Assembly: GCA_016165875.1 (NCBI GenBank)
Contig: JABBOT010000004.1
Coordinates: 11,764,765-11,828,764 of the forward strand
Length of the DNA: 64,000 bases
Direction: 5' to 3'
Source: Acanthopleura granulata
Lineage: Eukaryota > Mollusca > Polyplacophora > Chitonida > Chitonidae
In this document: positions 2,377 to 41,900 of the stretch, piece by piece
How positions within the stretch are numbered: the stretch's first letter is position 1
How the letters are laid out: every line of letters starts with the position of its first letter
Notes under the pieces: model-generated
Database searches by the model: none
The model's input: only the letters and a program-made list of their open reading frames with translations
Told to the model about the DNA's origin: nothing
Program-made: the position numbers and the translations under genes

Positions 2377-4391
2377 CTATGTTGCTGGAGTGGTTTTGCC
2401 AGCCGGCAACTGGCACTTTGGATTGTGGTGGATAACTGTTCCGCCACTCTCCTCTATGGTCTCCCCTCGACACTCCAGACCGGCTTGGCATGGACAACTG
2501 AACTCATACATGTCTTTGTTGAAGACATCGTGGAGATCGGAAATGTGGCAGGACTGGCCCATTGTCCTCATGAGCTGGCACTCCCCTTTGTGACCGCCGA
2601 AGAGATCGTTAAAGATGAACCGCTTCCCGATGAAGTCCGAATGGACGCAGCATTGTGCTTCCCCGCAATCCGATGGACCGGTGCAATTTGGCTGCTCAGT
2701 GGTGGTCTGGGCCTAAGGAAAAAGACACAACAAAGGTTGTATATATTTTAAGATGTATATTGCAAAACAACTATGAAATGTCCTTCGATGTTGGTCACAT
2801 TCGAATACGACATCGATCCCAAGGAAGATTTTTAGTCTTCTTGTTCTTTTTCTTGCAGTCTTGGTGTTGAGAAGATTGATACAATCTTTTGATGTGTGGC
2901 CAATGTATGCTTTGTAATTCCAACTCAGATGTTAAGGTCTTTTATGAATAATTATTTGGTTCGGTTGATCGCTGATTTATCATGACATATTCCTTTCCAT
3001 TAGCAGCCTGTCAAATTGAGCATACTTTCCCAACATGAAATGACTACCACTTAACATACATTGATGACAAGAAACCAAATCACTGACGTGCTTTTGCAAT
3101 ACTTAATTATGGAGAAAAACATTACTTTAAAACGTCAAATCAACATATTTGCACATACAAATGTAGATTTATATCCAGATCTTCATATGTTCTGAACAAT
3201 AAATTAGGCATTAGGCATGAACTTGGCTTCTTTCGCTATCAGTTTCCCCCCTGTCCGCCATCGTATAAGTGAAATATTCTTGAGTACGGAGTAAATAAAT
3301 AAATAAATAAATCTTTCGCATTCATACCACCCTGTATGATGTCTGGATTAACACCATGTGACCATATCTCAGAAATAATTTCAAGATAACTGTTTGCCCT
3401 GAATTCATGACAATATAATAGGGGTCCGTCATGCAAATCTGTCGGGTGGCCAACTGGTTAAAAGTGGTTGACGTTCAATCACAAGTAAACAAGAGATATG
3501 GACTCAATCCCGGCCTCGGATAGGGAATTTTTCCCGCTTCACCTGTTCGCGAGGCCTTGTCGACGATATGACAGCTCGGGCAGTCTAACGTTCGTTGAAG
3601 ACTGCTTGTCTTCCACAAATATGTTGTGCATACATGTTTCTGTACATCACATGTTCGAAAGTTTGTCAATACCTGGCCAAAGGTCGGTGGTTGCATCGGG
3701 CTGTGCTGTTTTCTCCATTCATAATAATCTAATTGAAAAATTCTTGAGAATCGCAATGAACAACAATTTGGAACTGTTGGAATGGCTAGAGTTGTCTCCC
3801 TCCATGGTTATACGTAAGCTGTTACTGTATGTGTATTATAATCAAATTGGTATGAAAAAGAAAGTACCAATTAGCACCACGTTTTGCTCCGTACTTTCCA
3901 CTTTTTTAAGACACGGTAAGGCACTTAAAACTTGTCCAGTATTAAAATTTAAGTATTTTCCCTAAGAGATGAATGTAAACGCACTCTAGCGCCATGGGAT
4001 ACAAATGACCTTGCTTTGTTACATACTCAGAGTTAGAGTAAGGCCTTTATTAATATAAAATCAGACCGTTTACTCACTCGTAGTATTGTTGTCATCCATA
4101 GACTAAACGTTATTTTGTGTTTCATTTGGTTTTGCGGATGTTTATAGTTTTCTACAATCAATTCATTATGCTCCCCCACAAAGTAGCTTATTTTAATACG
4201 ATGTGCTAAATTCATATATACACAACTATATTTTATTCTTAACTCTTGTCCTCTAACGATTAAATGATTTGCCTGACTACTTCACACCACTTAAACCACA
4301 CCCTTGAAACCATGTAATAAAGTGTAAGAATTGCACTGGGACTTACCTTGGCAAATGCCAGCACAGCGAACAAAAACAGTAAGAATCTCAT
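2377..4391 (-). CDS. Secreted 10-cysteine colipase-fold protein (prokineticin/astakine-like)
   Basis: There are two exons: 4391-4347 (15 codons) and 2712-2377 (111 codons plus TAG), giving 126 aa. Exon 1 encodes the signal peptide MRFLLFLFAVLAFAK and ends at a consensus GTAAGT. Exon 2 follows a pyrimidine-rich tract ending in TTAG. Both ends are phase 0, so the mature chain probably starts at QTTTEQPNC. Cysteines are at 25, 31, 36, 37, 60, 70, 88, 90, 96 and 115, i.e. C-x5-C-x4-CC-x22-C-x9-C-x17-C-x-C-x5-C-x18-C. As I recall it, this is the spacing of prokineticins except for longer loops between Cys4-Cys5 and Cys9-Cys10. Related folds are astakine, the dickkopf C-terminal domain and colipase. 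The N-terminal AVIT motif of vertebrate prokineticins is absent, as in invertebrate astakines. The inferred role is an extracellular signal or immune cytokine; receptor unknown. I chose ATG 4391 because the in-frame upstream ATG (4505) would bury the signal peptide. Confidence 0.85.
3236..3315 (+). mobile_element. SINE 3' tail fragment
   Basis: This contains the tail motif GTATAAGTGAAATATTCTTG followed by AGTACGG and an (AAAT)n run. The same tail recurs in degenerate form near 3730, 22340, 42840 and 43870, so this is a 5'-truncated copy of one SINE family. It lies in the intron of the colipase-fold gene. Confidence 0.65.
3440..3765 (+). mobile_element. tRNA-derived SINE, diverged full-length copy
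   Basis: The head shows a box A-like TGGCCAACTGGTTAA (from 3448) and a box B-like GGACTCAATCCC (from 3499), i.e. an internal RNA polymerase III promoter of tRNA type. The 3' end around 3730-3750 carries a degenerate version of the AAATTCTTGAGTACGG tail. It lies in the intron of the colipase-fold gene. Open frames across it are chance. Confidence 0.5.
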
Positions 4392-7504: not shown

Positions 7505-10287
7505 TCACTTGCGTTTTACACGACTCAGATCGTGTTCTTTCTTGTTCGATTTAACGTGCTTCTTTGACTTTTTATCCGAGGGCTGTGCCCCTTTCTTGTG
7601 AGCTTTGGAATCGCTCGTGCCGTTCTCAGATTTCTTATGTCGTCTAACGTGGTGCTTCTTTTCTGACTGGTGTCCGTGTTTTCCGTCCCGCTTCATGGTC
7701 CTGACTTTGTCGTCAGCCGCATTCAAATTTCTGACGTGTTCCGTCCTCTTCTTCCTCAACAGAGCTCGTGCCAGCTGGATATCTCTCTTAGTAATCGTTC
7801 CTCGCTTCATGCTCTTTTTGGCTCTCTTGTGCACCTTGTTACTCTTGCTATTCCCGCGTTTCATTCGGCTTAAGGCACGGCCAGAATCGGAGTTCCTTTT
7901 GGTTCGTTTGACCCTCAGAAGCTCCTTCAGTTCTGCTGCTGAAACGCTTCGCTTCTTTACATGCTCCAGTGCCTTTTTGATCAATACAATATGGCGCTTC
8001 TGCCGCTTGTACCTCTTCAGCTCTCGGTCATCTTCTAACCGCTTTACTCGTGAGAGAGTTTTCTCATGACTGGCTCCAGTCAACTACAAGGAAACAAAGC
8101 AAAGCATTATGTGAATCTGATAGGTTCTCTGGTGAAATATTCGACATATTATATTATGCTTGAAACCATCAGTCCCTATCAACCTGCTATTTAATTAATT
8201 AGCTGAAAGGGCTTGCAGAACCTAGAGGAAAAGGTCACAAGTTCCCATGTACCTCAAAGCTCTTGACACTGAATCTCTTGTAAACAGCAATAGTTGGGTT
8301 CTAACTACCACAATATTCATCTAATACAGACAGGATTCGAACTCTCCACTTCACTGCCACTCTGAGGTGTGACTGTCTTTATAGATTTATAGTTCAGTTC
8401 TTTCTTGTTAGATTTCAGTATCTTGATACTATACCTTCCCATCTATATTTGATAAATTCCGATACTTCTTTTGTACATAAAACATAATAGGTTTATGAAA
8501 GATTCCAGAAATGTATAGTTGTCAAAAGGTATAACTCATAGCTGTAGTCCAAGAATACTGTGCCTAAAAAATTAAAAGTATATATAACATTTTGTTTTTT
8601 ATCTTCCGTTGTATGCTTACATCCAATCTCTTCGTTCGGTGAAGTTCTCGATCAATAGGAACATTCTCAGCAACTTCTGCTTCCCTTTTAAGACGATGTT
8701 TCTGAGGACAGACAGAATTGAAACAAGGTTAAGGCTGTCGTGTCATTCAACCGAATGCATGCCTTGTATAATCTTACGTAGTTTACTTAACGTTTTGAAT
8801 AAAACCCATATTCATTAATTTAGAAAAGACATTTACATTCAACAACATGACATGCATACCTATTCAAGCTTTGTTTCACATATAATCTCACGTAATTAAC
8901 CGAAAACTATTAAATAAACATTTCAATACAAAGATCTTTGGTTCAAACTTTTTATATAACATCTTCTGCCAAAGTGTAGACATTATCCTTCAACATACAC
9001 CATTCGGAATTATGGGACTGTCGCAGTTTTGCTACACATTTTAAAGTAGTCTCAACTTTCCGACAATTTTGGTACAAAAGTACCAAACCCGAACAAAGAC
9101 ACACAAATCTTGAATGTTTAAATTGCTGCTGACATTAATCATCTACCAAGACGACATTTCCTCCGATATCTAAGATTTACTGCCAGCTTTAAGTGGCTTC
9201 TCCGGAACATCTGTCCTTCGCTATTTCAGCCAGGATTCAGTGGGGTCGTCAAATTATGATCATGCATTCACTCAAGGATACAGTGTAAACTGATATCGAC
9301 CAAAATATGTATTTTATAGTGCGGGTGTATTAACTACTTAAACCATTATTTTAATGTGTATGCATCACAGATATACCTGCATTACTGTTGTATCCATATC
9401 ACCACTTATCGATAGATGCAGAACAACAAGATTATGCTCAAAGCATACATAGAGCTTGCTAATTGACCAGCGAATGCGAAATGTTTTCCTTGCTTTGCCA
9501 ATGCTTTGAAAAACAGAAAATTAGTGAGACAAATTTTATATGCGAAACACTCGCTGTTCATTCCTTCTGTGTTAATACAAAGAGCACACGTTATCGATGT
9601 GAAATGTCGATATTCTGTTCTCACCTTTTTTTCTATTTGCAGTTTTCAAAGATCTCTGGATGTGGTTATATGAATTTGGGTTTTATGGCAGACTGCATTC
9701 ATTTATCAAGGTTCTGATGTAGCTAGGCCAGAGGGACTGTGTATATCGAGTGAATACCTGTTGACTGCATGAGTTTTGGGAGATGGATGGATTCCTTTCC
9801 CCAGACACGGTATATTGTTGCAGCTGGGTGTCTATGGAAACAGCCGCCTGGGCCTGCCGTCGCCACAGTTCTGGACCGAAGTTTTAGCTATGCCCAGAAC
9901 CACATAGGATAGCCTATCTGGTAGAACCTAATATACCGATATCACAACTGCTCTACGAGGCTTTCCTTCCTATTACGCCCTCATCGATTTCCGTGGCACG
10001 GCTAAAGCTCGACAAGGATTGTGTCCGTTGAACTGAGCGTAAACAGACCAGTGAATAACGGCGTGCATCTGCATACATATATGATATATTCGGCATGCAT
10101 TTGTATTCCTGGACCATATTGGCTCGTATTATCAATGGGGATATTATATATTGGGCAGAATTCCCATGTGATCTGCAGTGAAGCGCTATATCGCACAATA
10201 GAATACATCATATAGCACCGATATAGTATATAAGTAAGTTAATAATTCTGCCCTAGGGAAGATCTAATCATATCGCTTAACTGCGCA

Positions 10288-18324: not shown

Positions 18325-18864
18325 CAAGCAACTTGAATATAAACACTTTAATTATTTGAATACACAAAACAGCTGAAAGTGAGTAAACGGCGAAAGATGG
18401 CCAAGATACATAGTCTAATATCAGAAAAACGATGACTAAAGTGTCCATTAAATGCATATTTTAACATTAACATGCATATTTTGAAACTCACCACAATAAC
18501 ACCCGAAGGGTTTGAGTTCAAATGTCGTTAATTTCTTGTTTAACGCCATTACCCCATAGCATTACGCTGTTGAAAGTTAAGATTCTTATAAGATGTCGCA
18601 AACGTCTGTCTCATTATGTACATTACAAAGCAACAAAGAGTAAGAAAACTTCTGTGTGGCTAAAATTGCAGAACAATCGCTATCGTGTAGCATCGCGCAC
18701 GCCTATATGTCGCTAAGGCCATTTCTAGACTAATCACATGAAGGAATAATGAAGACATCACACAGCGCAGGAAAGAACCATCTTAAAGATTCTTTCCATA
18801 TTATTCACTCCATGTAATTTATTTCACACCCAGTCAAAATGCACGATTGATAAGTGACAGGTAA

Positions 18865-18872
18865 TATAAATA
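18865..18872 (+). promoter_or_regulatory. TATA box of the repeat-protein gene
   Basis: TATAAATA lies 122-129 nt upstream of ATG 18994. Transcription would start near 18896, leaving a leader of about 100 nt. Confidence 0.55.
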
Positions 18873-18993
18873 CCCAAAGCAAACCTTGAAATTTGGAAAC
18901 TCGAAAATTTTACTTATGAACAAATAAATAATAACACCATGAGAATCAATATTCACTATCTGTACATTCCTCACCTTCGCTCAGGTAACTGCA

Positions 18994-21900
18994 ATGAGGT
19001 TCGCCGTATTGACCTTTCTAAGCCTGGCCTGTGCGGCTCAAGCTAATGTCTTGTCCGACATCTGGCATACCATCGAGAAGCCCTTAAAGAGCGTTGGAGA
19101 GGAGACCTTGGGATCCGCCTTGAAAAACAGGCTCTCCTCTGTTCTCGGACTATTTGGGAAGAAGGATCTGCCTCATTTGTAAGCTACCATGCCAGGTGGT
19201 TTGGGCGTTAGACGCCGGTAAATTCTCTACATTTACTATGCAGTATGTAACATCACAGTACTTTGACGCATCCACAAGAAAGACAGATCTTGATACACTT
19301 TTTCTTAGCTCAAATCGCTTTTATTTAGGCGAAGATATCATTTAAGTTGAAATTAACTGCGTAAAATGTACAACAAAAAGTGAAAAATTTCTTTTGGAGT
19401 GGACTAAACAAGGATTTACGTAACGAAAACATCAACGCTGTCTTCTTTTAAAACCCATTTCCCTCTGGCCTGGTTGAAGGCTGATATTATACATTATAAG
19501 CTCTGCCCTTCTTGCACTCTTCTTGCAACTAGAAAATCTGAAAGATTTACAAATACTTCTTACGCGATGGGACGTTGATGAAGCTCAGAATCACCGTTCA
19601 AACTGTTTTATAATGAAATTGTCTAAGTGAAATGGTTCCTATTGCAATATATTGCATGTGGCTAAACGATATTCTAAACTGTCGAAAAAACTGGTAATAT
19701 TTCTGTACTTCTGTGAATAAACAAATGTATGAGTAAAATAATTCACGAGAACATATAATGGTCATAACCACTCGGGCCCGAAGTACATGCATGGGCAAAA
19801 GGTACACCAGATTTCCAGCTTATGCATGTTCCAGGGCCATCAACCTTCACGATGAGGTACTTCGATGGATACAGGAAGCCCGGGAACTGGTGGAACACGA
19901 GATCACGGAGATGGAAGAGATGGGAAAGAACCCGGATGGGGAGTTTTCCGACCGGATCAACGAGCTTCTCAAGGCCTTTCAGCAAGCAACGAAGTACGGC
20001 AACATCCAGAAGTTCATTGACGACTACAGCCAGGACATTATCAAGCAATTTGCTGCCAGTGGGTCTAGAATATTATCGATGAATCAGTGAACCCAGCAAG
20101 TTTTGAGTATTTCAACATATAAACTTTGATGTTTTCATTATTTTAACACATATCCCGAACTCATTTAAATGCATTATTTTATATTCCCATTTGACTAGTT
20201 TTTATACCGAATATTTTATGTCCTCGACGGATTTTATATGTTTAAAAAAGTGATACAAAACCCAGAATAAAAACGAAACTCGCTAGGTCTCTATATTGCA
20301 CAAACCTTCTGACGGAAAGCTTTAACCGAAACGCCAAACTCCATGCTGAATCAGCCATACCGATGAATGCCTACTGGTCCATGCAAGTCATTCAGATTTG
20401 ATTAATGTGGATATTACTTATGAGCCAGTAGCGTCATACATTTTCACATGAGTCACCGCAAAATATAACTGAGCTTTATGGACCATTTTTTGGATCCTGA
20501 TTTTCGAATCGTGGACTAAATGAGCGTTTTGACCACGTTATACACTTATGCCTGAACCATATAAATCTCCATAATTATCTATATAGCGTTTCAGCGGCAT
20601 TTGAGATAAGCCATTCATCCCCGGGTCGCTTTCTAATAGACTTACGGGATTCTCCTGAAGCGATTTCTTAAATCGGCATAAAACTTACGTTTGAGCAAGC
20701 CAGTCGATTTCTTTTTATAATTTTTTACGCATTGTTGAAGGGATTCATCGAATACCTGCCCCCTTACTACAAAACTATAATAACTATACCCACTCAACTT
20801 CAACTTCATAAGTCTGCTTTGCTCATTCGCCTTCGAGAAATCACATGTGTTTGGGTTTTTACGTTTAGAATTTCCTTTTCTTCTGGAAATAAAGGAACCG
20901 TGTTCAACTTACCGCTTTATCGTTTCAGCCCTACAAAGAAGACTGGAGAGCAGGCTCTGGATTCAAACCCACAAAGTAAGCCATCGATGACACATATTAG
21001 TGCCTCCATTTTGTTAAACAACAATCCACAACATCTCAATACATATAAACATCTAAGAATAAAAAGAAACATCCAGATGGGTTTTTGGGTTGACGGATTG
21101 TATGCGAATGTCGGTTTCGACGCCTAGGTTTAAATAGTTTAGTTCCTGCTTCTTGCTAACCAAAATGTCGTTTAAATAAGTACCACAAATTCCTTAATTT
21201 CTGCGGAAATTGCATGTTTTTGAAACAGGTATCGCGTAAGACTAGGGGTAATGATATCCTCGTCCAAATGCTGAAAAACATCACCGTGGCTCACTGGTTT
21301 TTCTCGATGCCTGAAATGGAAAGGCAATTCCTGGTGGCCATGCTGGACGCCACGGAACACGGTCATCTTCACGACTTCGTCAAACATCACTCCTTTGATC
21401 GTGTCCTCGTCTTCATTGATCGTAAGGAATATGAATTAAAGTCACGCCACATCCTAAAATCTAGTCGATCCCCATAGCACTTGATAATAGGGATCAACTT
21501 TCGATATTCGATACTTTATAAGCTCCGTCATAGTGTCATCCTCTGTTCTTTTATGTTAAAGACTTTGGGACTGAGTATAAAGAAATCTTTTACTTTGCTA
21601 TATTTCTCTTTCGCAGAATCAAAGTACAGATAATATAACATAAATGTAGGCTAGAAAGTTCAGATTTGTGGAGCGGGAGGGGGTGGGTGTTAGGAGTCGG
21701 TTTGGACAACATCTGAAACCACAGGTAGTGATTTGAGAGACTTTCGTAACTTGGTTGATTTGGTCATATCCTAACAGCCTTGTTATCATTCACAAAATTC
21801 GTACTTTTTCACAAACTTTGTTCTTTTGTCTTAGCTTGAAATATTAAGACTCGCTGTGTCAGATGGGAATGAAGCAAAAGCCTCCAGGTCTTAGAGGACA

Positions 21901-24900
21901 ATTCCAAAGGAATGTATAATTTAACATTAATATATCATCATGACATTTCACCTTTGACGATAAAGACGATTGGAATGTAATTCAACTGACCTTTGCAGAT
22001 TTACCCGCTGCGGAAGGACATAAACTCAACCATTACTTGGTGCAGGTAAGCTTAACTCCGATTTAGTACTCCAGCTTCTCCATAAGAGTTCTATACATAT
22101 ACACGTACGTGTACATATTGCAGCTTGTTTTACAAATGCACATGGCATAAGGTGTATCTCTTCGAGAACCAGTTCTATCATGAATAATTTTGGCCGAAGG
22201 GGTTAGCGCACCGTAGCGGTCTAATTACCCAGGTGCCTCTCATCAATCCCGCCTCTGTGGGTTCAAGTCCATCTCATGCTGGCTTCCTCTACAGAGGTAC
22301 CTGGAAAGGTCCGCTGGCAATTCTTGAGTTCGACGTAAGGCCATAATCAAATAAATAAATAAATCATAAATAATTTTCCGCACTCATCAAGGGAGATAAT
22401 TCTAAATGTAAATTTGAGTCCGTCATTCTGGAGCTCCTTTTTTGTGACTTGTTTCAAAAAGCATCTGAACTTGGAGAACAAGGGCAAGAACACGACCGAA
22501 CCTCACCCAGCATCAAAAAGAGGCGTGGAGGAGTTTTTGCGCATGTTGAATGAGATCTACTCTGAGCATATTTACAGTCTCCTGGACAAGGAAGACCGAT
22601 TGTTCTTCCTGGAGTTGATGGACGCCGCGGAACACAACACTCTCACCTCCTTCATTGCAGACCACTCGATGGAGAGGGTCGAGAAACTAACTGAAGGTAA
22701 GCAATCTCTCCGATAATTGACAATGCGTGGCAGTCACTCTGAAATCACCGTGAAATTGGACTTTTAGGAACATACAATTGCATTTTTCATCATAGGTCGA
22801 GTTAGATAGCATTTCATTCTTCATTATTTCATATTCACCAATCGTATATGCGTAAGTGTCAGATCTGAGACTGTTTGCTGCCACAAAGACTAGGATTAGA
22901 TGTGTTGTGAATGAAATAATATGAACCGTGACTGAGGTGCTCGTTTTTTTAAAACCATAGTATTATAAGATTCCTATTGGTGCTACTCCAAGATGCAAGT
23001 ATTCAAACCAAATGTTTTCAGAATATATTACCTTGAACTTCGATGAAAAGCATTTTATTGTTAATTTGGAACAGGTGTTCCAAAGGAAGCTGGTGATAGG
23101 CTTATAAACTTTGTGACTGAGGTAAGTTCTTAAAGAGGTAACTGAGCGTTTGTAGATATTGTGAAAAGGGTGGTCCATACAATTCGTTACACTTGGACCT
23201 GTTAACCAGCACACATGAAATGTACACATCCGTTTAGTTCTTACGGAGAGAATCTTTCATCTTTGTAAAGGAAGGTTCATTTGATTTCCATACATTAAAA
23301 TGAAGTATCCAATGACATGGGAGCTCCATTGCGTTCCCACTGTTTGCTATTTTGTAGCGTCTGAAGAGTGAGACAAAATTGAATCACCACCATCATCCAC
23401 ATCAGAGAAGTCCTGACATTCTCCTCGCTATTCTAAAAGATATCCACAGAGCAGATGTTTTCTTCCATTTACCTGAATCCGAACGAAAGTTTCTCTTGAA
23501 TCTAATGGACGCGGCAGAGAATGATCATTTGGATGCCTTTGTCGGGAAAGTTGGGATCCAGCGAGTCAGAAATTTTGTCACACGTGAGTGCATAGTACTG
23601 TAATTTTTTATTCGTTTCTGATCATTTTGATTTAATCAAAGCAATGTTGTGCTGTTCATTTACACAACCATAAATACAATAACGACAATCTTTTTTAAAT
23701 CCATTTTTATTACAACTATAGTGTGTAGTGTCAAGTGGCTTTTGATGAAATCATGAGGAAACAGGTACAGATTACGTCATCCAGCACATACGTACATCAT
23801 TAATGTTGAGCCCAATATAACATGCAGCAATGCCAAACTCATCCAAACCTTTGGTGTCCATTTTCAGATCTACCAGAAGAATACCAGAAGACGATGACGC
23901 ATTATATTGAAAACGTATGAATATACGTATACGTGCTAATAAGATAGTTTTTGTTATTGACAGACTATCCCATGTTTGTAAAAAGAACTTTTTGTACCTG
24001 CCTTACCTAGGCATTTATGGCTAGCCAAGTTAAGGTATGGTGCAGTATTATAACCGAAGTGTGATGCCTAAGTTGTTACCTTGTAAGCCCAATACATGGG
24101 TTCAAACACTGCCTGCCTTTAGTTATTCCTCGTTCTACGTACAGAATGCGGGGTCAAGTATTGTTGGATCTATAGTACAGTCACTACGTTGGCGTCATGT
24201 CAGGTGTCATCGCCATGGCATTCTAATGCACCGTTATAAATACATAAGCATGTATGTATATATGGTGTTTAGTGAGATTATCCAAATTCAAAAAATTCAG
24301 CGCGTGGTTCTGTTCTTCCCTCAGCATCTGCATCACCACATGACGACCACTACTACTCCCACGCATCACACTGCTGTAATGCTCACCATACTGAAGGATA
24401 TCCACACCGCCGCGATTTTCATGAACCTGCCAGCATCGGAGCAGAGTCTCGTTCTTCAGCTGTTGGACGCTGGTGAGAACGGACACATCACCACAGAAGT
24501 ATCGAAGATCGGCGCCCACAGGCTGAAAACTCTTGCCAGTCGTAAGATATTGATATTACATCTAAAAGTGTGATATGAATGAACGTAGACAAACTCACCT
24601 GCATGGCTATATTTCAATATCCTGCTGAGTTTACACAGAGTGGCATAAATGAGCTTGAAATATTTTATGTATTTTGAGAAACAGCAAAAATAAAGCATAA
24701 ACATACGGAAGTAATTGAAAAGTCTCGTGACCTTTCGTCCCGTTTGTATGCTAATTAGTGTAGTTTACCCCAATTTTATGTAAACGATAAATGCAACAAG
24801 CTTTCTTATTCGCTTGCGTAGAAAGGTGTTTATCGATCAAAGTTCTAAACGCCCGTGTGTCTTGAAAAATGAGATCAAGCACAAAAGTAACGAATTTGTT

Positions 24901-27432
24901 TTGGAAACATGAATTAACATACATGTATATAGATTTTCTGCAGTATGGTTTTTTGTGGGTAAATGGTATCACGACTCATGAATTATGTAGTTCTAAGGAA
25001 GCATGTTGCACTAAATATTATTGATTTCTTTTAGTAGATGGATTATTGATAAATTATTGGCATCAGACTTGCAGATATTCTTTCAGATATTTCGTGACGT
25101 TTCTGCATTTCATTTTCAGATTTACCTTCACCGTTCAAGGAGCAGCTTACAACATATGTTGTACAAGTGGGTAGAATATACATTTGCCCTGGCCAATTGT
25201 CTGTTTGGGTGGAAAATAATAATAATGAATATATAATCAGCATGTGGGTCTCTTAAATTATAACAGACTGAAAACTTAGTCTGCCGACGTGTAAATTATT
25301 TTGCACAATAGCAAAATGCTATGTTACCTAGACGCCATTTCATCTACATCATATACGTTGAATTTTACGTGGTTTAATATCTTCTTAAGTGATGCCGCAG
25401 TTCTGACCTCTGGTGGACATTTTAGCATCTGAATACAGAGAAGACAACTACGGCACCACTGGTGGCAGACCGGGAAATCGCAGATTTCGATGACGCTGAG
25501 TATGGTATGACAGAAGAACAAAGGCGCTTTTACTACCAACTCAAACATGCTGCCGAGAACAAAGAACTGAAAGCCTTCATTACGAAAGTGGGTGTGGCTA
25601 GAGTCATGAAATTTCTAGAAGGTACACCACAGTTTATTCATTTCCCACGCAAACTGGTATATCATAGCTTGTCCCACAATCCGTCAGTTTGGAAAAGAAC
25701 TCCGAAAAAGGTTACATCCAATTCTGCATCATTTGGTAAATGAATCTTTGTCTTCATGATTTTCAGTTTAAGTCATTTTTATGGAAGTTGAGTCTCAGTC
25801 GCGGTCAGTATTCATAAAATCATATCAGGTGGCGTCATTTACGGAAAATATATTGTTGTGAAACCTTCCGCTGAGCTTTGAATATATATACCGATATATA
25901 TCTGCTTATTGAATAATAACCATATATACATATAAATCTCTACAAATTACATTGGGCAGGTTTGACGGACTCCTTTTCTCAGCGTCTACAACAACTGATC
26001 ACAAGAGTACGTACACTAAATGTATACCACAAAAGGTTTTGGGAAATTTAATTTGAACACATGCAAATAATATGTACCATTTAGTATATATAACGATCAG
26101 TGACAAATATTATGGCAGAATATCTAGTGTAGGCCTCCTGTTCTTTTCCCTCACTCAAATACTACTTAAATTTCAACAGATTGCAAACATTGTGAAATTC
26201 GTCTGTTATGCACGTCTTTTTTATCTTTTCAATGACGTTCCTCTTCAGGAGATGGCAGAAGAGGACAAAGTGGTGAGTCGACGAACTTGTACTGTTTCAA
26301 TCTATTTGTTAACACCTTCTCTTCAGTTCATTTTGCCGGATGAACTACGCTATACCTGTACTTTGCTATTTAAGCCATAGCGACAACTATCACATGGAAG
26401 TTTAATATTCTTAACCATCAGACCATTCACATTGTACACTAAAAGCATAACAACACCCTTTGTTCCAAACACAAATTTCTGCATGATATGACCATTTCAT
26501 TACGATGGTAGAAGCGTGAACTTTATTCCAAACTATATGTATCAGTTTTTAATGCAGTACACGAGTCCGTTTTACTGAGGCCGAGACCATTTTAAATGTA
26601 ATTCCACGTAAATAGATGTTAACCCTTGATCTCCAGATTAAGCCACTCACACCTACTTTGAAGAGACGGGATCACGGGCACGGCCACGAGACTATCCACC
26701 AGTCTGTCCACCACATAGGTCAGCACCTCACAGAGCACCACGGCCACTACGACCAAGAACACCACAAGTTCTACGAGGATCTGAAACACGCCGTAGAGCA
26801 CCATCAGCTGAGGACATTCCTGGAGCACGTTGGCACGGACAAGTTGTACGAGTTCCTAAATGGTAAGACATTGCACGCGTTTCGACAATATACAGGCCTC
26901 TATACCGCTGTGCTTGGAACCCAACACTCACCTTCATCACAAATCCACCACTGCACTGCATGGTGTTACATGTAAAGCATGTAAAAACACCTGAGCTCTA
27001 TACACACATCTTAGTTCACCTACTTTTGGTGTGCAGGGAGCAAAACTAGTTTAGCATTACGGTACTTGATGCTTTACAGCTGTCACCACGCGTTCTATTT
27101 CGTCTTTTTCAGCTATACCGCAAAGCTATGCCGAAAGCTTCGAGTCTCATATTCTTGTGGTGAGTTAATATTTTATTATTTATCTTTAAATTAAATTATT
27201 TATTTTATTTAATAAATTCAATCATTTATTTCAGGTCATATGCTGTTTGATATGTTAGTGTATCCATATTATGTATATCAATGCAAATATGTCAAGATAT
27301 GGATTTATCAATAATGATCAAGTTGTCCTGTTACAATTCCAATACATTGCGCAGGCATGGATATCTTGCATCTGAAATTTTCTAAATTTTCGGTTGTAGG
27401 AACTCGAAAAAGAGGACCACGTACATACATAA
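18994..27432 (+). CDS. Secreted seven-unit helical repeat protein, uncharacterised
   Basis: There are 17 exons: 18994-19178, 19835-20058, 20929-20975, 21229-21421, 21999-22045, 22462-22696, 23075-23121, 23358-23583, 23868-23914, 24325-24541, 25120-25166, 25426-25621, 25960-26006, 26249-26272, 26637-26862, 27113-27159 and 27400-27432. The frame closes exactly (2088 nt, 695 aa). Residues 1-17 are a signal peptide (MRFAVLTFLSLACAAQA). Residues 18-61 form a basic amphipathic segment. Residues 62-685 hold seven diverged units of 80-99 aa, then a 10-residue tail. Each unit is a long exon (phase 0 in, 1 out) plus a 47-nt exon (phase 1 in, 0 out). The core resembles FLLNLMDAAENDHLDAFVGK, then V-G-x-x-R-V-x-x-F and L-P-x6-L-x2-Y. 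The mature protein has no cysteine. Units 4, 5 and 7 have His-rich linkers. Exon 2 is assigned a GTGGGT donor from phase and repeat alignment. I recognise no family. The look is of an extracellular or shell/mucus-type structural or metal-binding protein, which is inference only. Confidence 0.85.
22191..22368 (+). mobile_element. tRNA-derived SINE, internally deleted
   Basis: The head has a box A-like TAGCGCACCGTAGCGG and a box B GTTCAAGTCC (from 22261), followed by the family body (CTCATGCTGGCTTCCTCT), a short tail and an (AAAT)n run. It sits in the intron between exons 5 and 6 of the repeat-protein gene, in the same orientation. Confidence 0.7.
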
Positions 27433-27438
27433 AGGATG

Positions 27439-27444
27439 AATAAA
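27439..27444 (+). terminator. Poly(A) signals of the repeat-protein gene
   Basis: AATAAA occurs 7 nt after the stop at 27432 and again at 27534-27539. The second is the more plausible functional signal given normal 3' UTR length. Confidence 0.5.
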
Positions 27445-27965
27445 GATTTCTTCATCGCGGTAGTATTCTGTATAATTTATCTACTGATCAAATGCTTATT
27501 ATTATATGTCCAGGGAACTGTTACAGTACCATGAATAAAGAAGTAATGTTAAAAACTTGAATTGTCGCTTATTATAGATCAAGCAGAACAGTTTTGGTTT
27601 TGTTATAAATCTGATTCACTGAAAGCTGATAAAAGTCCGATAATAGGTTAGAAATTTGTTGATTAAAATATTTAACTAGGAAAGGTCAGCGTTTACCAGT
27701 ACAACAAGGAAATATTCTGGAGTTATTGCTTTCCGATGTCTGATACCGGTTTAAGCTGTCTAAATCCTACATCAACATAACAATGTACTTATTTCTTACT
27801 TGTGCAGATGTTTCAAAAGAAGAATTTCTCCTTTTTCCTCAACAGATATGTTTACAGTTTGTAATTCTCTTGTTCCAGGTCGACGTTCCGCAGCCAATTG
27901 AGCCTTCATCAGTTTGAAGACTGCTGTGAGCACGGAGAAGAAATAAAGCTGCGGCATAAATACTT

Positions 27966-28052
27966 TCCGAAAATCACCTGTGTTTTCAAAATCTGTTTTA
28001 CTCACGCAGTCCGAAAATCACCTGTTTTCAAAATCCGTATTTACTCATGCAG
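27966..28052. repeat. Two-copy tandem duplication, ~44 bp
   Basis: Copies 27966-28009 and 28010-28052 both begin TCCGAAAATCACCTG and end in a CACGCAG or CATGCAG variant. They differ by a few substitutions and indels. Confidence 0.85.
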
Positions 28053-28439
28053 GTAGTTGATTGGTACATGTAACTCTAAAGTCAGCTAACCGTGCATGCC
28101 GTCTGATTTTACTTTCTTACACTGTTCTTTCAGACAGGATATTACGTTTCAACATCGTTTCGACCGATTTTTACATCCTTATCTAAACTTTAGTTTCCAA
28201 GTTTTTGAAAAGAAACGATCGGTTATATTTATTTCAGTTTCAACTCCAGTGAACTATAAACAAAGAAATCGTTATCTAATGTACGTACTTTGATTTTTCT
28301 CCACAATCGTTTATTCGATCGACGTTATAATCTGGCAAATTGGTAAGAACCACGGCAGTGTAATGTCCACTACACCAAAAATTTGTTTGTCAAGTTGGCA
28401 ATGATGTCAAATATCTTTTCAACAGTCATATTCATCTTC

Positions 28440-29997: not shown

Positions 29998-32900
29998 TCA
30001 GTCTTTCTCATAGTTGACACTGTGGGATGGATCTGTCGGGAACATTTTCTGACACTGGGTCATCAGCCTCTTCAAACCCTGCAAGCAAATAACATCAGCA
30101 TAACTGCTGTAAGATTCATTTCTACAATAATTATATGCATAAATTTTCCCCTAAAATGCTTTAGGGGTTGAAAAGGTTGATGCTTCACAGTATAAGGATT
30201 TTTATCACCAAGTGAGTTCAATCTTATTTCTCCATATAAACAGTAATAACTCAATGTTCGGTTGCAATGCACTATTTCCTAGTACAACAGGATTCCATAA
30301 GTGAACATATTTATTTACAACCTTAAAAAACAAACTTCAAGCATAAAATTTCTGGAAGATGCTCTGAAATAAACTACTGTGCTTGTCTTCATTTATCTTA
30401 ATAGGTTAATGACAAAATGAAACTAAAAGACGTACTACATACAAGTCATCTCCAAACTCGTCACAAAATTATGTACCTGTATATATTTTCGCTGAGTTTC
30501 ATCATTCAAGACATGGGCCACATATCTGGAGGAAATCTTTTCTCTCCCTGTTCGAGCGTGAATCCCAACCATGGTAACACCAATAGGCCAAGGAGCATTA
30601 CCTATAGCCATTTCTAAGTAAACATCATTTGCCTGCAAAATTCAAAATACTGGGATGAGTACATATGCATATAAAGAACATTATAGATTCATTTTACAGG
30701 CATATTTTTTTTTTTGGCACGAATACTAATGGACTTTCAGATGGCACAGTAAAACTCTTCAAATGTAAATGTGCACAGATTACAACTGTAGTGTGTAATG
30801 GTCATTCCACTAAACATGCAAAGTTTAGAGGTAAAGATACATGGCAGACCACAAACCTTGAGGTAATTTCTGTCCATCATGTAACGAGTGATCTCAACCA
30901 TGCTTTCCAGAATGTCGACCTCTACCTTCTGCAACACAGCATACTTTTCCAATTGTACTGAACAACAATCATGTCCAAAAAACTCATATTCATGTATACC
31001 GTGTAATTTTTTTAAATTTCCATTTCACCTGCATTTGAAATTCCATACTGAGAATTAGGGTAATGAACCTGCTATCCTACACACAGATAATTATAACTTG
31101 TAAGAACTCTTCTGTAAGCAAACATGTACGTGATCAAAAGAAATTTTGAAGGAGATCGGGGCAGGGTGGGATTAATACAGAACAGATGAAAATCTGCCAA
31201 CAAGTGGTATTACCCTGAGCACACATCTGTTTACCTTTTGCTTGAGGTGCCTGAAGAGAGGCTTCATGTATGCCACAGTTTGAGTGTGAGTGGCACTGGC
31301 CATCTTTCCTTTGATGCTCCGCTTGTATTCTTCATTCCTTGCATTTAGGCTTTCTCCCCAGCGTTTCAATAAAAACTGGAGCATACAAGATTTAGTCTAA
31401 ATTATATGAATGAATGATTCAGATTCAACGACCAAAGAACAGGTTACAGAGTATTTGGAAATACATAAGAAATCTATATTAAAAATGAGGCTAAAACTAC
31501 AAACGCTTCATCCTGTAACACGCCTTTACCATCAAAAGGCAATTAATGTCATAATTAATGTCATTGTCCTATACTTGTGTACTCTAACAGTTAAAACAGC
31601 GAAAGAGATCTAACCTTTAAGTATCTCAATATGGTCTCCTGGTCTTTGTCTGTGTCCCCTTGCCCAAGTTCCTCTCTCATTTTCTGAAAAAATCAAATGA
31701 AGTTTAAGTTTTTTTCTTTTCCAGACTGAGCAACAGCTTATAGTGGCAAGGGTCAAACTTTAAAATCAATCAACTCTGAAGTTAACGTTTTTGCTAAATT
31801 GAACATATGCATGCATATAATTTATAGTATATAAATATGCAATTTAATTGGAATAAAATGTTTTGACAGAACTAACTGAGAAAACAATGTTCTTCAGTAG
31901 TAAATGATCAATAAAGATGAAGGCCATACAACAAACAAGAAAAATATAGCTGTTATGGAGAAAAATTCCAGGGATTGTGCACTTGTGCATACGTACTGCA
32001 TGCACAAATAATAACACTAACTGCATAAGGATAAAAATGGAGAAAAAACATGACAAAAATGAAAACGAATTAACGTGAATTGATCCTGGACTGTCAGAAA
32101 TCATACACGATAGGTCTACTTCTAGAGACCAGCATAGAGAAAAACAGACAAAGAGAGAGAAAGCATGACAAAAAAAGGAAAGGAATCAACTGGATCTAAA
32201 CCTTAGACAACCAGGATTCATATACGACAGATCTAGTAATAGAGACCTGCATAGAAAAAATTCCCCTTTGATATGCAGATAACAGCAGATAACAAAACAC
32301 AAGATTCACTGTCGACAGGCCGCTTTCGCAATGTACCGTTGACGACCCACGACAGGATTTCATGTTGTCTTACACGAAGCTTCCACTTCAAGTAAACGGG
32401 TGATGTTTCTGCAGTTTTTTTTTTGGCAGGAAGTTGAAAAATACTTCTCATAGACAAAATTTATACACATTTTTGTACTCCTTATTGTTAACTCACTTCA
32501 TACAGTCGTGTGTGTCTGTTAATAGTGGTAGGACTTCTGTGCCTCCAGGGAAGGGAGAGGGACTTCCGGTGAAAAGGGCGCGAAAACAAAGGTGTAATGC
32601 AAGAGCGCAATGAAGATTGTTGGAGTGTCAACTGAGAGTGTCGGTCATCTATGTGATAGTTTAACATTGGTAGCAGAGCGTGCAACGGCAGAATGGCGGG
32701 TAGCTACAAGAATCCTCCGACATTTGATGACCAAAAGATGTCTTTTGATACATGGAAGAACGAACTTGAAATATGGCGGCGAGTCACCGATCTCCCGGCA
32801 AAAAAAAAGGCCCTTGCTGTGTCTTTATCGTTAACGGGTAAAGATGGAGACATTGCCATGGAAATCCCAGCATCCCACATGAACGAAGATGATGGCATGG

Positions 32901-35900
32901 AGGTTCTTATGCGAAAACTCGACGGAACTTTCATGAAAGAACAGAAAGACTGTGCTTACGAAGCTTACCGTAACTTCGATGGATTTCGCAAATCGGAACA
33001 GATGAGTATGGTTGAGTACATCATTGAATTTGAACAGTTCTACCATAAATGCATCCATAAATGCAAGTATGACATGTCCCTGCCTGACGCTGTACTGGCG
33101 TTTAAATTACTGGACAATTCTGGCCTGGATTTGCGAGATCGCCAACTCGCTCTAACAGCGTGTACTGAATGGACATATGGGGCCATGAAATCGGCATTAA
33201 AAGGAATATTGGGAGACCAACAGCCAACAGATAGTGGTATCAAACTTACTTGTGAAACTGTATTTGTGTCTCAGCAAAACAGACGCCCAAATTTTACTCG
33301 TCCCCTGAAGGGCACTAATAAACTAAATCGCTTTGGCAAAAGAAGTAAATGTGCTATTTGCCAAAGTGTATTTCATTGGGCAAAGATTGCCCAGAAAAAC
33401 AATCAGCTCAAGCACATGTCACTTCACAACCCACAGATAGCAGTGATGCTGCAACAGAGAGTTGTAATATGACTTTATTCACAAAAACATAGGCTACTGC
33501 AAATGAAGTTCTTGTCACAGAATCATTAGGGTCTGCTGTCATTGATACAGCCTGTACCCGTACAGTTTGTGGTGAGCAGTGGTTTACTCATTACCTAGAG
33601 GCTCTACGTATGGACCAAGAACAGATCTCAACTTTTCCCAGCCATAAAGCTTTCAAATTTGATGATGGAAAGATTGTACATTCCTTTCTGAGAGCTATCC
33701 TGCCAGCTAAAATTGGCTCGACTAACTGCAATATCGACACAGAAATTGTCAAAAGTGACATTCCATTATTACTCAGTAAATCATCTCTGCAGAAAGCAGG
33801 TACCATGCTAGACTTGCAACAGGACAGAATAACAATGTTTGGTGAAACCCTTGACCTTGAGCACACTTCAAGTGGACATTACTGTCTTAATTTACTACCC
33901 AGCAATGTGAAGGATACCTTGAGGGAAAACTGTTTGCTGTCAGTTACTGATAATTTGACATCAACACAAAAACAACAGGCTGCCTTAAAGCTACATAAAC
34001 AGTTTGCCCATGCATCAGCAGATTGTCTCACCAAGCTGTTAAAGAATGCTGGTAGTAAAGAGAGTGAACTCTTCGACATAATCAAAACAACAGTGGACAA
34101 TTGTGACATTTGTGCTAAACTCAGAAAGTCTAGTCCAAGGCCAGCAGTTGGTCTTCCTCTAGCTATGGACTATAATGAGACAGTTGCCGTTGACTTACAA
34201 CGAACTTGCACATGGTATTTGGTATTTGCACATGATGGACGAGTCTACCAGATTTAGTGCAGGTTGCTTTATGCGCAGTAAACGTCCTTCTGACTTTGCT
34301 CAGAAATTTCTGAAGTACTGGATATGCGTTCATGGAGCACCTAAATACCTGTACAGTGACAACGGTGGAGAATTTAACAATGAGGAAGTTCGTGACCAAG
34401 CTGAAAATTTTAACATTGAAGTGAAAACAACAGCTGCATACAGTCCTTGGAGTAATGGATGTTTAGAACGGCATAATCAAACCTTGACTAACATGTTACT
34501 GAAGGTCAAGACAGAAAAAAACTGTGATTGGGAAACTGCCCTGAACTGGGCATTAGCAGCCCAAAGTGCTCTTCATAATGTCTCTGGTTTCAGTCCATAT
34601 CAGCTCGTATTTGGACACAACCCCAATGTACCCAGTGTGTTAATTGATGAACCACCTTCATTGGAAGGTACCACTATGAGCTCTGTGGTGGCGAATCACA
34701 TATCTGCATTACATTCGGCGAGAACAGCTTTCACTGAAGCAGAATGCTCAGAACGTAGTCGAAGAGCACTGCGAAAACAGATTCGACCACACAACGTGCA
34801 CTATGACCCTGGTGACAGAGTGTACTATAAACGACCAGACAGCCATGAATGGAAGGGACCGGGAACTGTTACTGGAAATGATGGAGCTGTGGTGTTTGTT
34901 AGGCATGGTGGTTCCTGTGTACGAGTCCATACCTGTCGGTTATCCAAATATCGAGTGCTTGACAATGCTTCCACTGTAAAATGTACATGTACCTGCCAGC
35001 TTGTCCAACGACACCAGCAGTGTTGATATACCGGCCACTAATCTCTCTGATCACAACTCAGACCAGTGTCACAGTGAGAGTGAACCAGCTCACAATGAAC
35101 CAGACAGAGATGTAACTGCACAACAACCAGTGACATTGAAAGTTACACCTGGCCAGACTGTGAGATATAAACATGCGCAGAATGGAGACACTTGTGTGGC
35201 AAAGGTCCTCAACCGGGGAGGCAAGGCCACTGGTAAATACAAGAACTGGTTCAACCTTCAGTTTTCTGCCCCTTCATGTATGAATGGTGAAAAAGCATCT
35301 GTAGACCTAAGTCAGGTACAAGAGCTAGAAACAGTAGACATTGACTCTGATATAAACAGCAACAATGTCGAAGAAAATGTGTTCAGTTTGAAAGACATAT
35401 CTTTTGCCGATGCAAAGGCAGCGGAATTAGAAAGTTGGAAAAATAATGGGGTGTATGTGGAAACATTAGATACTGGACAAAAGTGTATCACCACAAGGTG
35501 GATATGTACTGTTAAGGAGGCTTCAAATGGATGTGTTCCGAAAGCTTGCTTAGTGGTCCGAGGTTTTGAAGAACTCGAAGCGCAACACTTACCAAAAGAT
35601 TCGCCGACTTGCGCTGCCAAATCTCTCCGAATGATGTTGGCTGTGTTTGCCTTGAAGCGGTGGGAACCCCACTCAATGGACATAAAGACAGCTTTCCTGC
35701 AAGGTTCTGGAATGTCTCGTGATGTTTTCATAAAGCCACCTGTAGAAGCTAAGGCTAATGGCAAAATTTGGAAGTTGCGTAAATGTGTATATGGACTAGC
35801 TGACGCTTCCCTGCACTGGTACCAACGAGTGTGTGAAGTCATGTTAAAGTGTGGCGGTGTAAAATCACAGGTTTTATTTGGACTGATAGTGCAACAGACT

Positions 35901-38900
35901 GTGTGTGGCATACTTGGCTGTCACGTTGATGACTTTATATGGGGAGGCGCCTGTGACTTTGAGCACAGCACAGTCCCCATTATTAAATCTTGTTTCAGTG
36001 TCGGCCGTGAAGAAGAAAAGGACTTCTCACATGTAGGCATAGAAATATCTTCCTCAGAGTCATGTATAAAGTTGGAGCAAAAGGACTACCTGAAGAATTT
36101 ATAGCCCGTTCCTATTACCAGGTCGAGGATGCTGGAGCCTCAGTCACCACTGATTAAAACAGAAATGGATGCCTACAGATCTAAAGTGGGACAGATACTT
36201 TGGATCGCACAACAAACTCGACCAGATGTCTTGTTTGATGCCTCTGATTTGGCGGCCTCGCAAAAGAATGCAACTCTCCAAAACTTGGCCAATCTGAATA
36301 AGGTTATACGAAAACTTAAATCTTAAGATGTGACATTGAAATTCCAGGGCCTAGATGATCAACAACCCCTAGAGTTGGTTGTATTAAGTGATGCATCCTT
36401 GGCAAACTTACCAGACGGTGGAACGCAGGGGGGACACATCATTCTCCTGAGAGATGGAACCGGCCATATTTCGACCTTATCCGGGCAATCTAAAAAGATT
36501 TGCCGTATCATGGAAAGCACGCTTGCTGGTGAAACTCTGGCGTTAGCTGAAGGTGTGGATAATGCTATTTATTTGGCTACATTATACTCGGAACTAACTA
36601 CTGGACAGCCTCACCAAAGTGGGCTACCCGTCTTGTGCCTCACAGACAATAAATCCCTCCATGATGCAGTATACTCAAGGAAGTTTGTGGCCAACAAAAG
36701 ACTGCGACTGGAGATTAGTGGTCTTAAAGAAATGATTGAGCGAAATCTAATAAAAGAAGTGAGATGGATCCCGACTAAAACACAGCTGGCTGATTGCCTC
36801 ACCAAAAAAGGTGCCTCGTGATTGAGCTTACTTAAGGCCTTAAATGACGGAATGTGGTGTATGTAATTCACATCTACAGGACAGGAGTGATGGGATTTGT
36901 GGACTGAGAACAGGCTTGTTGAGATTCATGGATTGGGAATTGTAGTGCTATGATTCTGGAGGACACCTGGCGATGTTACTTTATACAAATTGTCAAGATC
37001 TCTAAAATTTTGACCACATTTAATTTATTTTTATAAAGGCTAATTTCTGTGTAATTTGGTTTGGTGATTATTGTTGGTTTTCATATGTCAAGCATTGGTG
37101 TATTACTTGACCTAGGACTCTAATGATAAACTGACTGAACCTACGATGGAAATAATTGCATGAACATTCCGCGGCTTTCTTTCTTTCCCCTATCGTTAAA
37201 CAGTGGAAGACAGTGTTTAATCTTTTAAACAGTGGGGAAGTTGTTAACTCACTTTATACAGTCGTGTGTGTCTGTTAATAGTGGTATTACTTCTGTGCCT
37301 CCAGGGAAGGGAGAGGGACTTCCGGGGAAAAGGGCGGGAAAACAAAGGTGTAATGCGAGAGCGCAATAAAGATTGTTGGAGTGTCAACTGAGAGTGTCGG
37401 TCATCTATGTGATAGTTAATTTACATTTAAAATGACACCCTTTTAAACAAAACTGGGCATATTACAGAAAACCATGTCGTGACATATTCAACCAATAATC
37501 TTATTCTACAAAATTCATCCAATCAAATTGCATGCACAAACTGTAATAAAAGTAACCAACAGAAAAAAGCATAAAAATGAAAAGAAATCATTTGGAACTG
37601 AACCACAGACTGCCTGGAATCATATACAATAGGTCTAGTACTAGAGATCAACATAGAGAAAACTGTCCGATTTTCAGCTCATAGCTGATAAGGAAAGACA
37701 GAAGAACAGAAGAATGAATGGGCTGCCAGGAACCATGTACAATAGGTCTAGTACTACAGACCAACATAGCGAAAATTCACCTTTAATCTACAGCTCACAG
37801 CCAATAACAAAACACAGAAAGTAAACAATGCTGAAAAGTTTGGCCTGACATCCGCTAAAGTGGACGAGCTTCGAAGGCTTTCCACAAACTGCTCACTGCA
37901 GAGGATATCCTGACACAGTTTCCCGGTGTACAAATGACGACCCAGGACAGGACTTCATGTTATCTTGCACAAACCACCCATGTTAAGTAAATGGCAAATT
38001 TTTGTACAGTTTTCTGGCAACAACTTGAAAACTACTTCAGGTAGACAAAATCTGGGCACATTTTTTGACTGCTCACGTTAACTTACATGTAAACTGTCAC
38101 CTTTTTTCTCACAAAAATTGGGTAAATTGGTAAAAACAAAGTCATATGCATATATATCAAAAAACAAAGCAACACATGTTTTTGAACTGGTGTCAAAGAT
38201 TATACATGCACATTTCGAGGATATTCCATTTAGCCGTTTTTGAGTTTAAAACAGATTTGCAACTCATTCCTAGAGGGCCACCAAACCATGTGATCTGTTA
38301 TACCAGATTTTTAACCTGCATCAGTTCACACCTGATCACATTTTATTGCGAATTTTCACTCTTTTCCATTGAGCCATTTACCTGGAAGTGTATCAGGAAG
38401 TCTTGAAGAAAAATAAAAAGAAGAAGAAGAATCAATACAGATGTCAGGGACAGTGATGCCTTGCTTCAAACCAGTAGGGCCTGTATCTGCATATCAAACT
38501 ATGTCGGGTAGCATGTTCAGAAGACTCAAATTCAAAATCATTGCTTTCACATGACATCGCTTTTGGTTCCGGTTATTTGCCCACACACTGTATTCTTTTT
38601 CTGACCAAATAAAACAAAGGCAACAGTTGTTACGCAAACTTTCAGGTCTACAGGACTGAGGGTTCTGAAGAAAATGCCTCTCAAAAGTTTTCCGATCAAC
38701 CCAATGTGGTAGCTAGATCACTAGACCTAGGACACCCAAACTTTTACTCAAGAAAGACAGTCCTCAGGCCTACAACCTACCTAAATATCACGCATTTCTG
38801 ATTTTGTATTTTAGCTGCAATTTGGCAATGCACTACTTCCACTTTACTGATATCATCTGCTTATGTAAAATTTGTCTCTATGCCTTGGGATGATGTTGGG

Positions 38901-41900
38901 CCTTAAGATTGCATCTCTAGCTTCACTGGTTACAGAGATATACCCACTTTCGTTTTGATTTTCCAAAATTTGGACACCTGGAATCAGCATCTAATACTGC
39001 ATCAGGTAGGAATGTCTGTGGGACATCAACTGTACAAGTGTAGAAATTACGAACAGAAAACAAGTGTTTTGGTCACATGACAAATTCACCCAATAGTGAG
39101 CATGTACAATTTTCAAGGCAGAAAGTTCTCTCTATGACCCTGAACATATCCAGGCTTTGTGCAACTGCATTTTAAATTTCATTGCAATTGCATTAGTCAT
39201 TCTGGAGAAGAGGTGTTTTAAAGCTTTTCACCAAGTCATGAGATCCAAAGTTTCCAGAAGCTTAGGTGCAAAACTTCAGGTCTGTTACTAAAACATGCTA
39301 TAGTTTCAAAACCGTGCAAATTGCCGTTTTCTCTAGAAACGCTGGTCAAAATTGTGCAGAATAATAATAAAAATAATAACGAACGAAAATAATTTCGTTT
39401 CGAATTTCAGGCCTGAAAGGCTTGAACCCCTAATACAAATCCTGAAAATTTCAACAGTGTATCGCCCTGACAGGTCGATCCCCTAACAAGCCACCAGACA
39501 TCATTCGATGATGGATGAATGATATCAAATATGTAACGCTAGAGCAATAATCAAGGCATGTGCTATTCAGATTTTTCCATGAGGCATCTAACATGCCAAC
39601 AGTGGAAAGTCAAGGTTTTACCTTCATATCTTCCTCTGTAGTGCCATCATCTTTAACCGAGACATCATTAGAATTCCCATCACTTTCACCTCCAGAGTTC
39701 AAAAGGTCATTCAAATATTCCTTGTCAACTTTCTCCATTGCAGCTTGAAAATCATTCTCAAAACCCTGAAGAAAGGCAATAAACATAAACTGAATGAATA
39801 TAAATAAATTTCAGAGCAAAGGTTTGGACACACTGCAAAGAATTACTCAACTGCAACATCATATTTACGAGCTAAGGTATTAATATATTATGCACTTAAT
39901 TCATGTAGTTACTGTAGGTCAGAGAATATTTAAAAAGTAACCAAGTTATGTTCTGACACAAAAAGTATGCACATTGGTAATCAATCACTCTCACTGCATG
40001 ATGGGTAGTTTTCCCCAGAGTATCCAGCTTCACTAAGAACTAAAACTTTCAAAACAATGGGTATGCTCAGTTCAATATAACCATACCTTATTAACTTCAG
40101 GTTCAAAAGCCTCCAGTTTCTTTAACCGCATGTAGGCTTCAAAGTCTGATTCCGCAAACAACCGAATTGGTTCATTCCTCTCTCTCAACCGTCTGATAAC
40201 CTATGAAACCCAAATACAAGTAGACAAATTTGGATCAAAACAGACAACAGGACATAGAGTCAAGTCTTTATCACCTGAAATAACTTCACAATTTTAGTTA
40301 CTGGTACACACATACCACAGTGAAAAACATATAAATGTAATTTAAAAAATTGCCCACCTCTTTTCTTGGAAGTTGAGCAAATTTCTCCTCTTCCTCTTTC
40401 TTCATATTCTCTGCTGTTTTTTCAGTGGTTTCCTCTTCTTTACTGCTCTGATAATGTCAAGAAATTTGAAAAAAAAGAAAGTGCTTGGATTTCAAGTTAA
40501 TGTTAAAGATGTAATAATGACTAAAAACAAGTTGTTTACAATGTGAAACAACTATGCTGTATTTGCAACAGAAATGAACTTGTGAAGAACTGATATGCAT
40601 GTGCTCAAGTATAATCACATCACAGAAATATAGCTGTCATGCACAGTAATTACGAGGACAGGCCTCATACGTACTGCACAATAACATTTAATTGCATAAG
40701 GATAAAGAAATGAAAAATAAACAGGACAAATCTGAAAAGGAATTGACGTGATTTGATAGCTGGACAGTCAGAAGTCATACACAGCAGGTCTAGTTCTACA
40801 GACAAGCACAGTGAAAAACAGAAAAAAGAGAGAAAATTCATGACAAAAATGCAAAGGAATCAACTGGATTTGAACCCTAGACATATACATTTTGATTTGA
40901 TAGCTGGACAGTCAGAAGTCATACACAGCAGGTCTAGTTCTACAGACAAGCACAGTGAAAAACAGAAAAAAGAGAGAAAATTCATGACAAAAATGCAAAG
41001 GAATCAACTGGATTTGAACCCTAGACATATACATTTGGTATAGTATTAGAGACCAACATATACAAAATTCCCCTTTGATCTTCAGATCATAGCCCACAGC
41101 AAAACACAGGGAGGTTTACTGTCGACATGGTGCTATCTCAATCTACCATTGACTTAACCCATGATAGGATTTCGTGTTGTCTTACACCAAGCTTCCATTT
41201 CAAGTAAATAGGAGATGATAGTGCAGTTTTTTGGACAATAAGTTGAAGATACTTCTAACAGACAAAATCTATGCATATTTTCGCACTCCTTATGTTAATT
41301 TACATTTCAAATGACACCTTGTTGAACAAATTTCGGCATATTAGAGAAAACCATGTAACAAGACATATTTAACCAATAATCTTGAGCTACAAAAACTCAT
41401 CCAATCAAATGGAATGCACAAACTGTAATAAAAAAAAAACAAACACAGAAAAAAAGGAGAAAATAGCATAAAAAGATTCAATGGAATCAATTGGTTTTGA
41501 ACCTTAGACTGCCCAGACTCTTATACAATAAGTCTAGTACTGGAGACCATCATCGAAAAAATTCTCCTTTGATTTTCAGCTCACAGTCAATAAGGAAAGA
41601 TAGAAAAACAGAAGAACGAATGGGCTGCCAGAAACCATATACAACAGGTCTAGTACAAGAGACCAGCAGAGCGAAAATTCACCTTAAATCTTTAGCACAC
41701 AGCCGATAACAAAACACAGAAAGTAAACAATGTTGGAAAGTTTGCCCTAACGGCCACTCAAGTGGACAAGCTTCAAAACCCTTCAACAGACTGCTCCATA
41801 TGCCGAAGATATCGAGATGACGCTTTCTCCAGTGCCCAACTGACTTGACCCAGAACAGGATATCATGTCATCTTCCACAAACCTCCCATGTTATGTAAAT

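Follow-up and report, generated by a model that had tools for sequence, protein, structure and literature searches.

A stretch of 64,000 nucleotides (nt) from the chiton Acanthopleura granulata (GenBank assembly GCA_016165875.1, contig JABBOT010000004.1, positions 11,764,765 to 11,828,764 of the forward strand; hereafter the window) contains at positions 18994-27432 of its forward strand a 17-exon structure that is a real gene and encodes an undescribed domain family. Its product is predicted to be secreted and to consist of seven repeat units, each spread over a long exon and a short exon of exactly 47 nt, and each probably folding into a bundle of four helices. We tentatively read the whole as a seven-bundle extracellular string of beads whose histidines bind metal, an explanation that we hold to be plausible yet somewhat short of probable. 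The gene provides a clean example of a secreted protein likely enlarged through the copying of a symmetric pair of exons, whose borders coincide with structural borders in the model, and it introduces a domain family whose units lend themselves to expression and testing one at a time.

The 17 exons and 16 introns were rebuilt from the window sequence. All of the introns are of the GT-AG type and measure 236-870 nt, and the spliced coding sequence of 2088 nt runs from an ATG at 18994 to a stop codon that ends at 27432, specifying 695 residues plus stop. None of 20000 shuffles of the coding sequence kept an open frame, the two alternative frames of the spliced sequence hold 37 and 27 stops, and the guanine-plus-cytosine (G+C) fraction at third codon positions is 0.575 compared with 0.361 in the introns. 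A search of protein collections at an expectation value (E) of at most 1 returned a single match, P0001 (LOC135471559), an uncharacterised protein of 695 residues from Liolophura sinensis (Polyplacophora, Chitonidae); it is 81% identical, aligns end to end without a gap and is the sole full-length match in the searches made. The rebuilt exons, the shuffles and this gap-free ortholog confirm the initial annotation in its view that the frame closes over 17 exons and that the gene is real. The notion of a pseudogene, or of a chance array of splice-like sites, is barely tenable in the face of a 695-residue ortholog aligned without a gap, the open frame and the elevated third-position G+C. The gene is framed by a TATA-box-like TATAAATA at 18865-18872 (+), which starts 129 nt upstream of the ATG, and by an AATAAA resembling a polyadenylation signal at 27439-27444 (+), which starts 7 nt beyond the end of the stop codon; a second AATAAA follows at 27534-27539 (+). 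All three are sequence patterns of putative function.

Exon 1 (18994-19178, phase 0 to 2; like all exons on the forward strand) carries the predicted signal peptide and an N-terminal segment, with probable cleavage after residue 17, at AQA/N. The long exons of units 1 to 7 are exon 2 (19835-20058, 224 nt, phase 2 to 1), exon 4 (21229-21421, 193 nt, phase 0 to 1), exon 6 (22462-22696, 235 nt), exon 8 (23358-23583, 226 nt), exon 10 (24325-24541, 217 nt, including a linker rich in histidine and threonine), exon 12 (25426-25621, 196 nt, devoid of helix-1 sequence) and exon 15 (26637-26862, 226 nt, including the histidine-rich stretch HGHGHETIHQSVHHIGQH). Their short partners, in the same order, are exon 3 (20929-20975), exon 5 (21999-22045), exon 7 (23075-23121), exon 9 (23868-23914), exon 11 (25120-25166), exon 13 (25960-26006) and exon 16 (27113-27159), all seven of them 47 nt long, precisely as had been noted at the outset. 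Units 6 and 7 are each trailed by one further exon, namely a 24-nt extra exon encoding EMAEEDKV (exon 14, 26249-26272, phase 0 to 0) and the final exon with the stop codon, encoding ELEKEDHVHT (exon 17, 27400-27432); the two peptides are alike by eye, which suggests that one duplication took along a third exon. The long exons had been described as running from phase 0 to phase 1, and this holds in six of the seven units; the exception is unit 1, whose long exon follows the phase-2 end of exon 1 and so runs from phase 2 to phase 1. The symmetric phase-0-to-0 pair therefore holds for units 2-7, and the proposed growth by tandem duplication of such a pair is supported for these six.

The relationship between the units was assessed with leave-one-out profiles, from which the tested unit was excluded (the unit alignment beneath them included every unit). 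In both species these profiles detect units 2-7, at E 7e-10 to 1e-24; in the window these units score 35.8 to 81.6 bits, compared with at most 17.1 bits for shuffled controls, of which 2000 were made per window unit. Units 2-5 from the two species, eight rows in all, give an ungapped alignment of 76 columns, so that the differences in length between their long exons lie in the linkers. Identity between units within the protein is 8-41%, whereas the same long exon is 74-94% identical across the two species, and hence the duplications predate the split of the two chitons. In a phylogenetic tree, units 1, 3 and 5 each group with their counterpart from the other species under strong support, and unit 2 does so at 89/93. 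The annotation had further proposed that length is under constraint, and both the gap-free alignment to the ortholog and the retention of 47 nt in seven of seven short exons, despite the low identity between units, support this. Units beyond these seven were not found within the window. Taken together, the array is likely to have arisen before the two chitons diverged, by successive duplications of an exon pair that runs from phase 0 to phase 0.

The fold of a single unit was predicted for unit 4 of L. sinensis, with a mean predicted local distance difference test score (pLDDT) of 92.3 and a predicted template-modelling score (pTM) of 0.81. The model has helices at residues 4-16, 19-22, 25-39, 43-50, 52-59 and 64-77 and depicts the unit, about 76 residues long, as a closed bundle of four helices. 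The short exon corresponds, by its exon limits, to model residues 61-76, such that the counterpart of exon 8 is predicted to supply helices 1-3 and that of exon 9 the preceding loop and helix 4; extended from this one modelled unit to the remainder, the inner intron of each unit would lie in the loop that joins helix 3 to helix 4. Six linkers of 7-41 residues (according to our own domain limits) separate the predicted bundles, and the array would therefore resemble a string of beads. The initial annotation had raised the possibility of a new repeat fold, which is not supported as stated; what the model offers is closed four-helix bundles on linkers, an arrangement that may be a common one.

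Relatives of the protein are scarce. A second sequence, P0002 (97 residues, source label lgn), matches the exon 6 part of both proteins with its residues 1-78, which share 87% identity with P0001 and 78% with the window protein; the similarity ends at most two codons from the predicted exon 6 donor, which fits unspliced DNA from a further related animal. Clear relatives were found neither in NCBIfam nor among PDB sequences, viral contigs or prokaryotic genomes. The protein searches depend on shared five-residue words and are length-bounded, so that distant relatives in other molluscs could escape them. The domain family is known so far from one chiton protein, the window gene and P0002, and no published account of LOC135471559 was found in the literature searched by locus name and for chiton histidine-rich proteins.

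Among described families, the nearest by score is MgtE_N (Pfam PF03448), which matches two stretches of the whole window protein with 28.8 bits against a cut-off of 25.9. On this score the unit might belong, as a remote relative, to a helical domain already described, but the ortholog reaches 24.6 bits and falls below the cut-off, six of the seven single units have no match at E of at most 5 (the seventh has E 0.037), and the best stretch spans 36 of 102 model positions. We consider such membership highly improbable, and the score is best read as weak helical matches added up across the repeats. The view that the unit matches no known family is supported to the extent that there is no clear match to a described one: the strong profile match that the annotation had named as refuting did not appear, and MgtE_N exceeds its cut-off for the whole window protein only.

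The product is predicted from its sequence to be secreted, in keeping with the signal peptide proposed by the annotation: a hydrophobic N-terminus is followed by AQA/N in the window protein and by AHA/D in L. sinensis, and the highest mean hydropathy over 19 residues is 1.65 at the N-terminus versus 1.35 in the mature chain. The mature chain contains 60 histidines in 678 residues (8.8%), glycine at 4.0% and serine at 4.4%, and it is free of cysteine in both species; histidine and threonine are abundant in some of the linkers. In the explanation that we favour, successive copying of a phase-0-to-0 exon pair would have produced a chain of seven bundles, the bundles would be exported as an extracellular string of beads, and its many histidines would bind metal ions. 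It is possible, though doubtful, that the product serves as a soluble extracellular carrier or buffer of divalent metal by virtue of these histidines. The boldest version, in which chitons invented a cysteine-free bundle of 76 residues with an intron in the loop linking helix 3 and helix 4 and spread it sevenfold into a histidine-rich extracellular metal carrier for their magnetite teeth, is distinctly improbable. Should metal binding or radular expression prove true, the protein would bear on the transport of metal to the magnetite teeth of chitons.

A number of results weigh against this explanation. With regard to the repeat, window unit 1 scores a mere 9.2 bits, below its best shuffle at 12.7 (L. 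sinensis unit 1 scores 21.9), and its assignment therefore leans on the 47-nt exon and its position as much as on sequence; the description of the protein as seven diverged units is accordingly secure by profile for units 2-7 and marginal for unit 1. Gaps are required to align units 1, 6 and 7 to the others, and unit 6 is without the first helix in both the alignment and the full-length model. The tree fails to pair units 4, 6 and 7 and nests unit 1 within unit 7 on a very long branch, of a kind that the tree program flags. As to structure, the unit model was built from eight rows; a single protein contributed seven of these as its units, and the window contributed none. The model of the whole protein is poor, with a mean pLDDT of 57.9 and a pTM of 0.23, and gives no reliable packing of the beads. 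Pfam DUF5691 gives sub-cut-off matches in both the window protein and the ortholog (E 0.0016 and 0.0013; 18.5 and 18.8 bits versus 27), which we treat as chance. Histidines in the linkers are conserved at 24 of 32 positions and other linker residues at 128 of 176 (Fisher p 1.0); within the units, 30 of 35 histidines are kept and fare no better than other residues (371 of 435). No metal-binding family was matched, and neither was an iron-responsive element: the window gave no Rfam match at gathering score, and the interval 18700-28200, within which the limits of the untranslated regions are not defined, gave two chance-level Rfam matches at E of at most 10, neither of them an iron-responsive element.

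The best rival to the metal reading is a partly processed polyprotein, cut at basic sites in some of the linkers into pieces of one or several bundles that would carry small hydrophobic ligands, by analogy with the polyprotein allergens of nematodes. Basic pairs common to both species occupy 4 of 200 linker positions versus 1 of 463 unit positions (Fisher p 0.03, with 14 border positions excluded). The shared sites are GKKD/GRRD before unit 1, RKTRG (of the form R-x-x-R) before unit 2 and LKRRD/LKKRA before unit 7, and a further shared pair, KRG/KRD (251), lies at the border ahead of unit 3. Secreted tandem helical lipid carriers are a known class (PMC3079579); they form four-helical bundles, and certain of their units have histidine-rich extensions. 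Set against this, the linkers ahead of units 4, 5 and 6 have no shared basic pair (L. sinensis alone has them at 326 and 521), and two of the four linker positions, 603 and 604, constitute one overlapping site. Searches of PDB sequences with phmmer and with profiles found no homology to nematode allergens, an absence that at this sensitivity is no proof; the cysteine pair of these allergens is absent, and a bundle of 76 residues would offer little cavity space. On balance we regard a polyprotein as unlikely.

A structural matrix protein, in which linkers rich in histidine and threonine would cross-link a flexible chain of bundles within a cuticle, girdle, radula or egg coat, also appears rather unlikely. 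The predicted bundle chain with its low-complexity linkers would suit such a role, and there is a chiton precedent in radular teeth matrix protein 1 (RTMP1), which is located in the mineralised cusp of the teeth, has a histidine-rich region and had no known relatives when it was described (PMC6351634). However, the glycine and serine contents of the mature chain are unlike those of the glycine/serine-rich RTMP1. Between these alternatives, the metal-binding string of beads remains our preferred, if tentative, reading.

Elsewhere in the window, a retroelement with several frames lies at 32660-36821 (+). A scan of nine of 26 frames of at least 110 residues placed an integrase core (rve, E 1.9e-9) within 34163-35026. 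Within 34980-36104 it identified a reverse transcriptase (RVT_2, E 8.9e-28), which points to an element of the Ty1/copia type; the frames to both sides gave no match above cut-off. A cysteine-rich frame at 2377-2712 (-) has sub-cut-off matches to Colipase_C (E 0.015) and Prokineticin (E 0.17) and could be one exon of a gene for a secreted protein resembling prokineticin. A 192-residue frame at 7505-8083 (-) is dense in lysine/arginine pairs (RVKR, KKR, MKR), its sole match being ProSAAS below cut-off (E 0.14). A 144-nt unit, whose length is divisible by three, is repeated perfectly head to tail, in two copies, at 40749-41036 (+), and diverged minisatellites with units of about 31-32 nt occupy 51312-51810.

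With respect to known systems, LOC135471559 of L. sinensis is the ortholog, with the same units and no difference in layout seen. MgtE_N resembles the window protein through a weak score over part of its model, and differs in that the domain is intracellular according to Pfam. RTMP1 (PMC6351634) comprises 539 residues, with a repetitive glycine/serine-rich region, a tryptophan/phenylalanine-rich region and predicted disorder and strands; the likeness consists of a chiton origin, a signal sequence, a histidine-rich region and the lack of relatives at the time, and the difference, judged by description and not by alignment, of the helical bundles predicted here and the low glycine and serine contents. 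Closest in kind are the nematode polyprotein allergens (ABA-1 and its kin; PMC3079579). A tryptophan conserved without exception and a cysteine pair are common to their units, basic motifs at regular intervals serve as cleavage sites, and in tandem repeat polyproteins of this type introns are few or small. The allergens share with the chiton protein the exported tandem helical units, the four-helical bundles and, in part, histidine-rich extensions, whereas the latter has no cysteine, no regular sites and 16 introns that fall both within and between the units. The chiton protein is ordinary in kind, a secreted tandem-repeat protein of narrow known distribution, and clean in its exon-to-helix layout.

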